This document shows, piece by piece, positions 13,103-45,868 of a DNA stretch of 46,258 nucleotides; within the stretch, counting starts at the first letter, position 1, and every line of letters begins with the position of its first letter. Below the pieces are notes generated by a model. The model was not told where the DNA came from. It made no database searches and worked only from the letters and a program-made list of their open reading frames with translations. The stretch is from a bacterium (lineage in GTDB: Bacteria; SZUA-79; Acidulodesulfobacterales; Acidulodesulfobacteraceae), in contig JAJYPL010000007.1 in NCBI GenBank assembly GCA_021795355.1, positions 1 through 46,258 on the forward strand, written 5' to 3'. The translations under genes were made by a program, and so were the position numbers.

Positions 13103-14149
13103 ATGAAAAATATACTGAATTTATCCAAAAAAGAATTAGAAGAATACTGTACGGCAAACGGATTCAAAAAATACGGCGCAGAACAGATTATGAGATGGAT
13201 TTATCAAAGCAGAATTTTTGATTTTTCCGTAATGTCCGATATTTCTAAGGATTTAAGGAGAAAGCTCGATGAAGATTTTTACGTTAAACTTCCCGAGATA
13301 ATAGACGTTAAATATGAAAAAGACGGGGACGGATATTCTAAAAAATATCTGATAAAATTTGAAAACGAGGATATCGCGGAATCCGTATCTATAGCGCATA
13401 AAAACAGGAAAACTTTATGCGTTTCGTCCCAGGTAGGATGCAGGATGGGATGTGTTTACTGCGAAACCGCCGGAATGGGTTTTTCAAGAAATCTGACGTC
13501 CGGCGAAATAATTTCGCAATTATTGACCGTTGAAAACGATAATAGCGATAAAATTACGAATATGGTCTTCATGGGCATGGGCGAACCTTTAGATAATATA
13601 GCAGAAGTCGAAAAAGCTTTAGAGATATTGTCAAACGACAAGTTTATCGGAATAGCTCAAAGAAAAATAACCGTTTCTACTTGCGGCTTGATTAATGTTC
13701 TGGAAAATTTTGATATAAACGCATATAAATATAAGCTTGCGATATCGCTTAATGCCGCAGATAGCGAAACCAGAAGTTTTTTAATGCCGGTAAATAAAAA
13801 ATTCCCTTTAGAAAAAATAGCGGATCTGGTAAATTTAAAAAAACCTTCGCTTCATAATAAAATAACCTTGGAATACGTGCTTATAAAAGACTTAAACGAC
13901 CGAATAGATGACGCAAAAAGGATGATAAAACTGTTTTCTCCTTCAAAAGTAAAGATAAATTTAATTCCTTTAAATAAAGACGAAAATTCGGTTTATCTAA
14001 AAAATTTTGAAAGACCGGACGATTTTACTATTGATAAATTTAAAACAAAATTAGCCAATGCAGGTTTTACCGTAACGGTAAGATTTTCCAAGGGCGGTTC
14101 TATTAACGGAGGATGCGGACAGTTAAAGGCGCAAATGTTGAAATATTAA
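13103..14149 (+). CDS. rlmN: 23S rRNA/tRNA (adenine-C2)-methyltransferase RlmN
   Basis: Radical SAM enzyme that methylates C2 of A2503 in 23S rRNA and A37 in some tRNAs. The cluster motif is CRMGCVYC near residue 113; the methyl-carrying cysteine pair includes the C-terminal Cys in NGGCGQL. MGMGEPLDN is the SAM-binding GEP-type motif. 348 aa. It is a lone plus-strand gene whose last 27 bases overlap the end of the convergent RACo-like gene. No Shine-Dalgarno is seen before the ATG; a TATAAA at 13079-13084 suggests a short leader of about 12 bases. Confidence 0.95.
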   Translation: MKNILNLSKKELEEYCTANGFKKYGAEQIMRWIYQSRIFDFSVMSDISKDLRRKLDEDFYVKLPEIIDVKYEKDGDGYSKKYLIKFENEDIAESVSIAHKNRKTLCVSSQVGCRMGCVYCETAGMGFSRNLTSGEIISQLLTVENDNSDKITNMVFMGMGEPLDNIAEVEKALEILSNDKFIGIAQRKITVSTCGLINVLENFDINAYKYKLAISLNAADSETRSFLMPVNKKFPLEKIADLVNLKKPSLHNKITLEYVLIKDLNDRIDDAKRMIKLFSPSKVKINLIPLNKDENSVYLKNFERPDDFTIDKFKTKLANAGFTVTVRFSKGGSINGGCGQLKAQMLKY

Positions 14150-15391
14150 ATTCTTAATAAAATGTTTTTGAAAAATGCCGCTTCCGGAAAGAGGAAAATT
14201 CTTGGATTTTTTTATTATATTTTCTATGCCTGTTTCTCTTTCTAACCGGTCGGAAAGAATATATTTCAAACATCCGTCCAATACCGAAGATTCAACCGCC
14301 TTAATCTTTTTCCCTTTAAAAGGAAAGATATCTACTAAATCAATTATATCCGTTTTTATATGGCTGCCGAAAGTTCCGGAAATAAATACGTCGAAATCGG
14401 TATAGTTAGAAATTTTAAATTTTTCCAATAATATTTCCGAAGCGGATTTCACCGCAGACTTTGCAAACTGAAACTGCCTTAAATCCTCCTGAAAAAATTT
14501 TACGGCGTTTTTTCCGTCAAAATAAACGACGATTTCATTTTCGCCGTTTTCTTCATTCTTCCTGACTACCGTAAAGTTCTCGGAATCTATATCTTCGGGC
14601 GGCAGTATTCTTCCGTTTTCGTCTATTATGCCTTCTTTTAATAATTCATATACGAGGCTCATTATGCCGCTGCCGCATATACCGGAAGGGTGAGAACCCG
14701 ATACGGTATTAATTTTAAAAATTCCGTTTTCAAGATTAACGTCGGAAATTGCTCCGGCAGAAGAAGCAGTCGTTCCAAATTTTATATTTCCGCCTTCAAA
14801 TGCCGGACCTGCCGGCGCAGAAGTAGTATAGATTTTATCTTTGCATCCTAAAGCTATTTCTACGTTAGTGCCAAAATCAGCTATAAAAGCAGGTTTCGTT
14901 CTGTTTATCATATCCAGATAATAGATGGAAGAGACGGTATCGCCTCCTACGAATCCGTCTAATACCGGAAAGATGAACATTTTTTTATTTTTTATGTTTA
15001 AGCCTGAAATATAATCGGTATTTTCCGGAAAAAAAATTTCCGAAGACGGTTTATAAGGAGGTTTTGATAAAGAAATTAAAGGATAGCCGCAAAACGCCAT
15101 TTCCATAACGGTGTTTCCGGCAATCACAATTTCTTTTATATCTTCGTATCCGAAACCTAATTCGGATTTAAAAGAATCTATCAAACTATTTATAGTCTCA
15201 ACGGCTTTTTCTTGAAGTTTGCCTGCGGAGTTTTTATCCAATCCGTTCTGTATCCTTTTTACCGAATCTAATCCGAATTCGTAATACTGCAGATTGGTTG
15301 TGCTCTTATAAGGATAAACTTTTTTTGTTCCGTCCGCCAAAACAGCGGCGACGGTCGTCGTACCTAAATCAATACCTAAGGAATATTGCAT
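14123..15391 (-). CDS. RACo-like ASKHA ATPase (DUF4445 family) lacking the ferredoxin domain
   Basis: 422 aa with the actin-like ATPase signatures of RACo/RamA-type corrinoid reductive activators: GIDLGTTTVAAVLADG at the N-terminus, VIAGNTVMEMAFCG, FPVLDGFVGGD, ADFGTNVEIALG, TSAPAGPAFEGG and SGICGSGIMSLVYELL. Characterised RACo proteins carry an N-terminal [2Fe-2S] domain; here the protein begins at the ATPase core, so an electron donor would have to be a separate protein. It overlaps selD by 16 bases and is surely co-translated with it. The likely client is a corrinoid protein, and MetH about 10 kb away is a candidate; this is inference. Confidence 0.78.
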   Translation of the reverse strand: MQYSLGIDLGTTTVAAVLADGTKKVYPYKSTTNLQYYEFGLDSVKRIQNGLDKNSAGKLQEKAVETINSLIDSFKSELGFGYEDIKEIVIAGNTVMEMAFCGYPLISLSKPPYKPSSEIFFPENTDYISGLNIKNKKMFIFPVLDGFVGGDTVSSIYYLDMINRTKPAFIADFGTNVEIALGCKDKIYTTSAPAGPAFEGGNIKFGTTASSAGAISDVNLENGIFKINTVSGSHPSGICGSGIMSLVYELLKEGIIDENGRILPPEDIDSENFTVVRKNEENGENEIVVYFDGKNAVKFFQEDLRQFQFAKSAVKSASEILLEKFKISNYTDFDVFISGTFGSHIKTDIIDLVDIFPFKGKKIKAVESSVLDGCLKYILSDRLERETGIENIIKKSKNFPLSGSGIFQKHFIKNLIFQHLRL

Positions 15392-16443
15392 ATAATGTTT
15401 ATATAAATCCCGTTACGAACGCCTTTTTCTAAGACTCTGCCTATTTTATAAAGGGGTTCGCCTTTTTTTGCGAAAGAGTCCTCTAACACGGCGGATTTAT
15501 CTATGGGAACGGATAGAATCAGCCCGCCCGACGTTTCTGCGCCGAATGCCGTCCATAATAAATTTTCGTCGACTTCTTTTTTAACGGAAGTATAGGACGC
15601 GAAATACTTCCTGTTGCGTTTCGTGCCTGCGGGATTAATCCCTCTTTTAATTAATTCCAATACTCCATTTATAACCGGAAGCGACTGCAGATATATTTCG
15701 CAGGATACATCGCTCGCAATCATCATTTCGCTCAAATGGCCTACAAGTCCGAATCCGGTCACGTCCGTCGCCGCATTTACAATGCCGGTCGAAACTGCAA
15801 TTTCGGAAGCATATTTATTCAGCTTAGACATTGACTTAGACGCTTCGACTAAGGTTTCTTCCGGCAAAAAATCGGTGCATATTGCGCTGACGGCAAATCC
15901 GGTGCCGAGGCTTTTAGTAAGATATAAAATATCTCCCGGTTTAACGCCTTGATTGGAATAGATATTATCTATTCCGCATATTCCGGTCACGCTTAACCCG
16001 TATTTTATTTCTTTGTCGTCTATGGAATGACCGCCCAAAAGAGCAACGCCGGCTTCCTTTATTTTGTCCAATCCTCCGCTCAGTATAAGGTTAAAAACCT
16101 CCTTATCGACGTCGTTTATGGGGAAACATGCGATATTTAACGCCGTTATAGGTTTGCCGCCCATTGCGTAAACGTCCGAAAGAGCGTTGGCTGCGGCAAT
16201 TTGACCGAAAGTATAAGGGTCGTCAACTACCGGAGTAAAAAAATCCACCGTTTGTATAAGACATTTATCGCCGCTTATCTTATACACGCCGGCATCGTCT
16301 TTATACCCGAAACCCACCAAAACGTTGTCGTTCTCCGGAACAGATAATTTTTCTAATATTTTAGAAAGGTCCTCCGGACCTATCTTACACCCTCAGCCGT
16401 GAGCGCTTGTCATACTGGTAAGTTTATATTTCTTTGAAGTCAT
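15376..16443 (-). CDS. selD: Selenide, water dikinase (selenophosphate synthetase), selenocysteine-containing
   Basis: Makes selenophosphate from selenide and ATP, the selenium donor for selenocysteine. The continuous frame starts only at 16320, but the conserved N-terminus lies upstream in the same frame across one TGA at 16393-16395. Reading from ATG 16443 gives LTSMTSAHG-U-GCKIGPEDL. Sec17 falls exactly where E. coli SelD has catalytic Cys17, and Lys20 is conserved. Total 355 residues, full length. A SECIS-like hairpin follows the TGA. DVTGFGLVGH, LLGGHSI and FGAETSGGLIL are family motifs. It overlaps the RACo-like gene; selA is about 4.4 kb away. Confidence 0.92.
16367..16395 (-). promoter_or_regulatory. 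Bacterial SECIS element in selD
   Basis: The UGA (16393-16395) is followed after 11 bases by a perfect 6-bp stem, AGGTCC/GGACCT, closing a GGA loop (16367-16381). The loop guanines lie about 18 bases after the UGA, within the usual 16-37 base range for bacterial SECIS hairpins recognised by SelB. Confidence 0.75.
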
Positions 16444-16500: not shown

Positions 16501-16651
16501 GGAAAAGGTGTCAGATTAATTTTCCGCATATCGTATTTTGTGACTGGGACAGAATTGAATTCTGTCCCAGTATTTAATAATGTTAATTGACTTTCCGTAT
16601 GAGGAAAATAAAATCTGACGCCTTTTCCCCAGAATTGAATTCCGGCACAGT
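16501..16651. mobile_element. MITE-like inverted-repeat element with a nested palindrome
   Basis: Ends are inverted copies: AAAAGGTGTCAGATTAATTT at 16503-16522 and its imperfect complement at about 16602-16627. Between them sits the palindrome at 16543-16571, and a decayed palindrome copy follows at about 16630-16651. It has no coding capacity and fills the gap between mlaD and selD. A second copy of the ends is at 44955-45045. This suggests a non-autonomous element mobilised in trans. Confidence 0.6.
16543..16571. repeat. Palindromic repeat, core ACAGAATTGAATTCTGT, arms ACTGGG/CCCAGT
   Basis: Perfect 14-bp inverted repeat around a single central G. It shares an invariant 17-base core with copies at 22260-22285, 42681-42709 and 45844-45868, while its arms are different in each copy but always self-complementary. 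Confidence 0.85.
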
Positions 16652-20808: not shown

Positions 20809-22248
20809 TCAGACAGAGGTTAAGGCGGCGAGTATATCGTTGAAATCGCCGGGGAAAACGGTCCGCATATCGAGCCTGTATTCGCCGTTTTTTATTTTTC
20901 CTATGACGGGGGTTTTGGCTTTTCTAAATATTTCGGCTATGCCGGATGCGCCGATTTTTTTATGGATTATGGATAGCGAGTATGTTTTAAGTTCGTAATC
21001 CGGAAGGGCTCCTCCGCCTACAAGGCTGAAATCCTCGGCTATTTTAAATTCAAACAGGGATTTGTCTATATTTTCGGATCTTTTAATTAAGTTTAAAAGT
21101 TTTGCAGCCTTTCGTTTTATTTCCGATTCGGATTGGGCGATAAGAGAAAGCGTAGGAATATTTTTAACCGCCCTGTCCGTATCTAAATATTCGAAAAGAA
21201 TAGCTTCAAGTCCGGCAAGGGTCATCTTGTCTATTCTAAAAGCCCTGTTTAACGGATTAGCCGCTATTCTGTCAATGTATTCGGCTTTTCCGGCTATTAT
21301 TCCGGCCTGAGGTCCGCCGAGGAGTTTGTCGCCGCTGAAGGTAACGATATCGACACCGTTCTCTAAGACCTCTTGGGCGGTAGGCTCATACGGAAGTCCG
21401 AATTTTCTTATATCGACGAAACTTCCGGAGCCGAGATCCTCCATTACGGGAATGCCGTGCTTTTTGGCCATGGATGCGATATCTTTTCCCGAAGGGCTTG
21501 CAGTAAAGCCTACTATCCTGAAATTGCTTTGATGTACTTTTAACAATAAAGCCGTATTTTCGTTTATGGCAGATTCATAATCGCTCAGTTTAGTTTTGTT
21601 GGTAGCCCCGACCTCTATCAAAACCGCTCCGGAAGCCGACATAATGTCCGGTATCCTGAACGAGCCGCCTATCTCTACCAGTTCGCCCCTTGAAACTACT
21701 ACCTCTTTTTTTACTCCGGAACAAAACGTAGAAAGCGACATAAATACCGCCGCCGCATTATTGTTTACTACTATGGCTTTTTCGCATTTTAAAATTTTTT
21801 TAAGAAGGTATTCTATGTGCGAATACCTTTTTCCCCTTTTCCCCTCCGAAAGATTAAACTCCAAATTAGAATACGAAGAGGATATTTTTGAAATATTGTC
21901 TAAAGCGCTTTTCGGTAAAATAGAACGCCCTAAATTTGTGTGAATAACGACTCCCGTTCCGTTAACGACTCTCTTTAAGCTGAAAGAAAAATCGTTTAAA
22001 TCGTTATGAAGTTTTTTTATAAAAAATTCTGCGTCAAGTTTATATCGGTTTTCCGAAATACTCTGCTCAAATCCGTTTTGCATCGACTCGATAATTTTTT
22101 TCTTTTCGGATTCTATTAAATTTTCTATTTTATCTTTTATAAATTCATGCGGGAAAGACTTATATATCTGAGAGTCCTTAATTCTTTCCAATACAGACTG
22201 AACGCTTGGAAACCGTCTTAATATTTCGTTTTTATTTTTATTTTCCAT
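20809..22248 (-). CDS. selA: L-seryl-tRNA(Sec) selenium transferase
   Basis: PLP enzyme that converts Ser-tRNA(Sec) to Sec-tRNA(Sec) with selenophosphate. VVIHTNLGRS, the Gly-rich GSFRIPDIM segment and the PLP-lysine region FSGDKLLGGPQAGII near residue 310 are family hallmarks. 479 aa is full length. With SelD it shows that selenocysteine is used; selB and tRNA(Sec) are not in the window. It follows recO by 48 bases with a palindrome of the ACAGAATT family between them. About 207 bases downstream are AT-rich and hold nothing recognised except the presumed HNH promoter area. Confidence 0.95.
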   Translation of the reverse strand: MENKNKNEILRRFPSVQSVLERIKDSQIYKSFPHEFIKDKIENLIESEKKKIIESMQNGFEQSISENRYKLDAEFFIKKLHNDLNDFSFSLKRVVNGTGVVIHTNLGRSILPKSALDNISKISSSYSNLEFNLSEGKRGKRYSHIEYLLKKILKCEKAIVVNNNAAAVFMSLSTFCSGVKKEVVVSRGELVEIGGSFRIPDIMSASGAVLIEVGATNKTKLSDYESAINENTALLLKVHQSNFRIVGFTASPSGKDIASMAKKHGIPVMEDLGSGSFVDIRKFGLPYEPTAQEVLENGVDIVTFSGDKLLGGPQAGIIAGKAEYIDRIAANPLNRAFRIDKMTLAGLEAILFEYLDTDRAVKNIPTLSLIAQSESEIKRKAAKLLNLIKRSENIDKSLFEFKIAEDFSLVGGGALPDYELKTYSLSIIHKKIGASGIAEIFRKAKTPVIGKIKNGEYRLDMRTVFPGDFNDILAALTSV

Positions 22249-22259
22249 ATTTTTAAATA

Positions 22260-22285
22260 CGGTGCAGAATTCAATTCTGTCACCG
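22260..22285. repeat. Palindromic repeat (ACAGAATT family), arms CGGTG/CACCG
   Basis: The core is in reverse orientation (CAGAATTCAATTCTGT), with one base missing on the left arm. It lies 11 bases after the recO stop and before selA. Confidence 0.75.
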
Positions 22286-45843: not shown

Positions 45844-45868
45844 GAGGACAGAATTGAATTCTGTCCTC
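45844..45868. repeat. Palindromic repeat (ACAGAATT family), arms GAGG/CCTC
   Basis: Perfect palindrome with the invariant 17-base core. It lies six bases after the stop codon of the M16 peptidase gene. Confidence 0.85.

Follow-up and report, generated by a model that had tools for sequence, protein, structure and literature searches.

The selD locus on the minus strand

The DNA analysed here, called the window below, is a stretch of 46,258 nucleotides covering positions 1 to 46,258 of contig JAJYPL010000007.1 (GenBank assembly GCA_021795355.1) from a bacterium of the family Acidulodesulfobacteraceae. On its minus strand lies selD, the gene for selenide water dikinase, at 15376..16443, with an ATG start at 16443..16441 and a TAG stop. 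The frame from 16443 down to 15376 is open once an in-frame TGA at 16393..16395 is taken as selenocysteine (Sec), giving 355 codons and a product of 355 residues including one Sec, with the N-terminus MTSKKYKLTSMTSAHG-U17-G-C-K20-IGPEDL... In a profile search where the Sec was entered as Cys, the product reached 370 bits against TIGR00476 (cut-off 125), and its best PDB matches are both selenide water dikinases, namely 2yye (E-value 1.5e-67) and 3u0o (1e-66), the latter of which we take to be the SelD of E. coli. The match with 3u0o spans residues 4-339 of the 356 in the query, and in the phmmer alignment U17 falls on residue 17, a Cys, while K20 falls on Lys20; thus the catalytic Cys or Sec and the Lys in the N-terminal loop that characterize SelD are both found, as U17 and K20 at the places of Cys17 and Lys20, and the UGA occupies the catalytic Cys/Sec position. 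Immediately downstream, at 16367..16381, the same strand carries a hairpin of the bacterial SECIS type, AGGTCC-GGA-GGACCT, with a stem of 6 bp and a GGA loop.

With the UGA read as a stop, the open reading frame listing gives selD as 15376..16320, starting at a TTG (Leu42, 16318..16320) which we regard as a false start, and hence 41 residues are missing together with the active site. An earlier note on this DNA had claimed that the conserved N-terminus extends upstream through one TGA and that Sec17-Gly-Cys-Lys20 is equivalent to Cys17 and Lys20 of the E. coli enzyme, and both claims agree with the frame and the alignment described above. The note was also right that a truncated gene model would lose 41 residues and the active site, but it took the start of that model for an ATG where the actual codon is the TTG at 16320; and the UGA and the hairpin it pointed out are real, but lie on the minus strand, which it had omitted to say.

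As for the neighbourhood, the last 16 nt of selD are shared with a minus-strand gene at 14123-15391, which resembles the C-terminal part of AcsV, a protein of corrinoid activation (NF040756, where its 193.9 bits fall well short of the cut-off of 800), and a homologue of this gene is present within the fetched flanks of selD at all 30 loci of the family, full-length or nearly so in 22 and partial at the locus edge in the other 8. Besides, a near-perfect palindrome of 21 bases with the core CAGAATTSAATTCTG is found at 16547-16567, upstream of selD, at 45846-45866, and in a weaker form at 22262-22282, just upstream of selA, all of these places being intergenic. Searched over both strands, it gives 5 matches where 0 are expected, and of 101 loci 8 contain its core, some of these covering overlapping places and one (L097) having it twice. 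Its appearance is that of an interspersed repeat.

Conservation of the UGA and of the hairpin

In order to follow the UGA across species, SelD was searched as protein in 61 genomes, among which the own genome and 29 relatives, one genome per species, make up the family set. The own genome and all 29 relatives have a SelD with a TGA inside the matched stretch, at protein identities of 68-95%, and in all 30 the codon sits between His-Gly and Gly-Cys-Lys, with neither TGC nor TGT at this place in any of them. Further stops read over in the family matches, a TAA in four genomes (G008, G009, G011 and G013) and a second TGA in G017, are real stops. Beyond the family, 18 loci were fetched for 19 strong SelD matches; the site is UGA in 13 of them and TGC in one, and in four it was not located by the motifs. 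The hairpins of these more distant genes differ in length and spacing, and the stem at L093 is just 4 bp long.

The hairpin of selD itself begins close to the UGA: 11 nt separate the codon from the stem, which starts at the 12th nucleotide after the UGA, and the loop starts at the 18th, with 17 nt separating it from the UGA. The perfect 6-bp hairpin with a GGA loop was therefore described exactly in the earlier note, whose distance of 18 bases applies to the loop and not to the stem. According to an excerpt of PMC13188914, the bSECIS model for bacteria has a loop of 3-9 nt with a G in its first two places, a stem of 4-16 bp, 16-37 nt between UGA and loop, and an energy of at most -7.5 kcal/mol. 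Our element, with GGA, 6 bp and 17 nt, keeps to the rules on loop, stem and spacing, its loop starting with GG; it differs from the typical picture in a spacing near the short end and in an energy that comes down to -7.5 kcal/mol only when the flanks are included. More specifically, the energy is -12.1 kcal/mol for the 51-nt stretch with flanks and -7.4 kcal/mol for the bare hairpin, to be read with the reservation that the excerpt leaves unspecified which stretch the limit is meant for. Across the family the bare hairpin has -7.4 kcal/mol in 29 of 30 genomes and -4.8 kcal/mol at L039, both above the limit, while the 51 nt after the UGA pass it in 29 of the 30, the last one reaching -7.2 kcal/mol. 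A scan of the window with Rfam at gathering thresholds gave nothing.

Taken alone, the hairpin is weak evidence and unremarkable by chance. A G-loop hairpin just as good occurs at 254 codon positions out of 5,678 in 13 genes of the window, and an equally good one arises in 347 of 20,000 synonymous recodings of the selD stretch; the fold of this stretch has a z-score of -2.2, with 4 of 200 shuffles folding equally well. What excludes chance is that the UGA and the silent sites are conserved, not the hairpin by itself. The 6-bp stem forms in all 30 family genomes, being identical in 26, with a G-U pair at the foot of the stem in three and an internal G-U in one, and the minimum-energy fold contains the hairpin in every one of them. 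In the four hairpin codons, GGT-CCG-GAG-GAC, the silent mean pairwise difference over the 30 genomes is 0.017, compared with 0.488 over 160 degenerate codons whose amino acid never changes; they rank lowest among 70 runs of four codons, and none of 200,000 draws matched for amino acids was equally low. The sole silent change in these codons, GAC to GAT at L039, replaces a G-C pair by G-U, by which the stem is kept but becomes weaker.

Such a gene is by no means the first of its kind. As reported in the portions of PMC4561486 at hand, Sec is encoded by 19% of the SelD genes that a prokaryotic reference set yielded, its position never varying, and Sec-type SelD genes contain bacterial SECIS elements; a section of PMC1794560 likewise lists SelD as a selenoprotein in many bacteria, so that Sec-containing SelD is long established (PMC4561486, PMC1794560, PMC13188914, each as far as excerpted). 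With the known Sec-containing SelD/SPS2 our gene shares the family, the Sec position, the Lys three residues further on and a SECIS-type hairpin directly after the UGA, and nothing essential differs, its own marks being a minimal 6-bp stem, a GGA loop and a UGA in each of the 30 family genomes. The Cys-type SelD of 3u0o, in contrast, has Cys17 in place of Sec17 and needs no UGA decoding. Since SelD as a selenoprotein is already known, the selD described here is another case, and the knowledge of SelD as such is unchanged.

The Sec machinery and other readings of the UGA

The own genome is a draft of 1.31 Mb in 54 contigs, rated 66% complete. It has a tRNA-Sec scoring 68.4 bits against a cut-off of 47, which ARAGORN also calls as tRNA-SeC with the anticodon TCA, and in the window itself lies selA, for L-seryl-tRNA(Sec) selenium transferase, at 20809..22248 on the minus strand (TIGR00474, 571.5 bits, cut-off 267.9). 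No match to selB over the cut-off was seen in this assembly at its 66% completeness, yet 27 of the 29 family relatives have a selB match above it, the exceptions being G011 and G024; for two of the 27 (G021 and G023) it was counted from two pieces of one frame together, and G010 and G012 each have a pair of distinct selB matches above the cut-off, which may reflect either duplication or a mixed assembly. The simplest reading would be that the third of the genome absent from the assembly holds the selB of this species. As to tRNA-Sec, with 57 candidates scored per genome, it is over the cut-off in 24 of the 29 relatives and not over it in G002, G007, G014, G015 and G024, among which G014 is rated 100% complete. 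The Rfam cut-off is not fully specific, as some distant genomes without selB over the cut-off (for example G043 and G047) reach 47-53 bits; the family matches stand at 64-73 bits. Hence the search for selB and tRNA(Sec) that the earlier note had called for gave the tRNA in the own genome and selB in most relatives, but not selB in the own genome as far as it is assembled.

Considering all this, we hold it very probable, at about 0.96, that selD encodes a selenoprotein whose Sec is read from the in-frame UGA. The claim of the earlier note that SelD is itself a selenoprotein, its Sec17 being served by a SECIS element of the bacterial type, is thus upheld by the family profile, the alignment with a solved structure, the UGA in 30 of 30 genomes, a silent constraint that peaks in the hairpin, and the tRNA-Sec and selA found in the own genome. 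It has nevertheless to be weighed against other explanations of the same UGA. That a Cys codon was misread in sequencing or has recently mutated to a stop, which would leave selD of the Cys type or broken, might be suspected since TGA is one base from TGC and TGT and the assembly is a draft in many contigs; but this is already refuted by the conservation, as the same TGA recurs in all the family genomes, one per species, and the selD reading frame beyond the UGA is intact in all 30, and we leave it a negligible chance. Scarcely any credit can be given either to a start at the downstream TTG, by which a short and possibly non-catalytic SelD would be made while the UGA closes a leader peptide. 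It is exactly the frame that the listing of open reading frames gives, but upstream of the UGA there is conservation at the protein level: in codons 2-16 the silent mean pairwise difference is 0.47 (degenerate codons, 30 family genomes), while the amino acid is invariant at 10 of the 15, and from codons which vary silently as their amino acids stay it follows that the stretch before the UGA is translated as protein. Moreover its residues align one by one with the active-site segment of a solved SelD, and the TTG falls within conserved SelD sequence, where the next Met is residue 53 of the short form.

A further alternative is a decoding of the UGA without Sec, through an altered genetic code or through leaky decoding as another amino acid. 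That selB was not found in the two thirds of the genome at hand would suit this explanation, and UGA read-through of SPS1 without Sec has been described in Hymenoptera, as an excerpt of PMC4561486 has it. Against it stand the tRNA-Sec and selA of the own genome, the selB carried by 27 of 29 relatives, the conserved hairpin, whose loop, stem and spacing match the bacterial SECIS model, and the stops of the 42 main open reading frames in the window (31 TAA, 8 TGA and 3 TAG), by which TGA is a normal stop here; we therefore judge non-Sec decoding to be very improbable. Under the preferred reading, that of a Sec codon, SelB with Sec-tRNA(Sec) would act on the hairpin just past the UGA of codon 17 and put in selenocysteine, so that translation would not be ended there. 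The product would be a selenide water dikinase with Sec in its N-terminal loop (HG-U-GCK), where 3u0o has Cys17. Beyond the frame, the alignment, the conserved UGA and hairpin and the genes for tRNA-Sec and SelA, all of them observed, we infer a selB gene in this species, binding of SelB to the selD hairpin, insertion of Sec in living cells and an active enzyme. As SelD would make the selenophosphate for SelA, its own synthesis would depend on its own product.

Other selenoproteins and the meaning for the family

We also looked for other selenoproteins and users of selenophosphate; the family searches with stops read through reveal only a TGA within the matched domain. In two relatives of the same genus, G001 (L078, G001:C43) and G013 (L077, G013:C50), a gene with a molybdopterin domain, FdhA-like, has an in-frame TGA and a SECIS-like hairpin, with a stem of 8 bp and a GTT loop 19 nt downstream of the TGA. 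These two are the only ones with a TGA in the PF00384 matches of the own genome and 18 family genomes, the matched stretches of the four own-genome matches having none; among 11 other genomes of the same search a TGA is present in G039. Over the 30 family genomes no TGA appears in CCG (PF02754) among the matches listed, nor in FlpD (PF02662) or AhpC-TSA (PF00578), and the HesB-type domain PF01521 has no match in any of the 30. This last domain, of HesB/IscA-type Fe-S assembly, is found in 9 of 14 control genomes. A read-through scan of TGA codons in the window gave 15 candidates, of which only selD was accepted and the rest were rejected by eye. Three more candidates come from two own-genome stretches with genes that are presumably HdrA/HdrB/HdrC-like, named by eye, and none of them was convincing by eye.

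As for other uses of selenophosphate, SelU (TIGR03167) was found in none of the 19 family genomes searched, and YqeB (TIGR03309, cut-off 220) passes the cut-off in none of 30, although 11 of these give short matches scoring 18-20 bits. It might be imagined that in much of the family SelD is the main or only selenoprotein, selenophosphate having no other known use, and that the Sec machinery chiefly serves itself in a closed loop after the loss of others such as the FdhA-like enzyme. We hold this for rather unlikely, because our search covered a handful of the about 90 families and subfamilies of selenoproteins (a figure from an excerpt of PMC5029168), and it is not claimed that SelD is alone. 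Related situations have been discussed: a passage of PMC1794560 mentions several species whose single selenoprotein is SelD, all of them with YbbB/SelU, unlike the 19 genomes searched for it here, and one in PMC13188914 suggests that SelD may sustain the Sec trait where FdhA is rare.

To sum up, the gene model of selD is corrected, in which the UGA taken as a stop would trim 41 residues including the active site of SelD, and Sec decoding is probably spread across a family that is represented here solely by draft genomes. If no other selenoprotein or user of selenophosphate should indeed exist in this lineage, it would offer a natural experiment on the reasons for keeping the Sec machinery.
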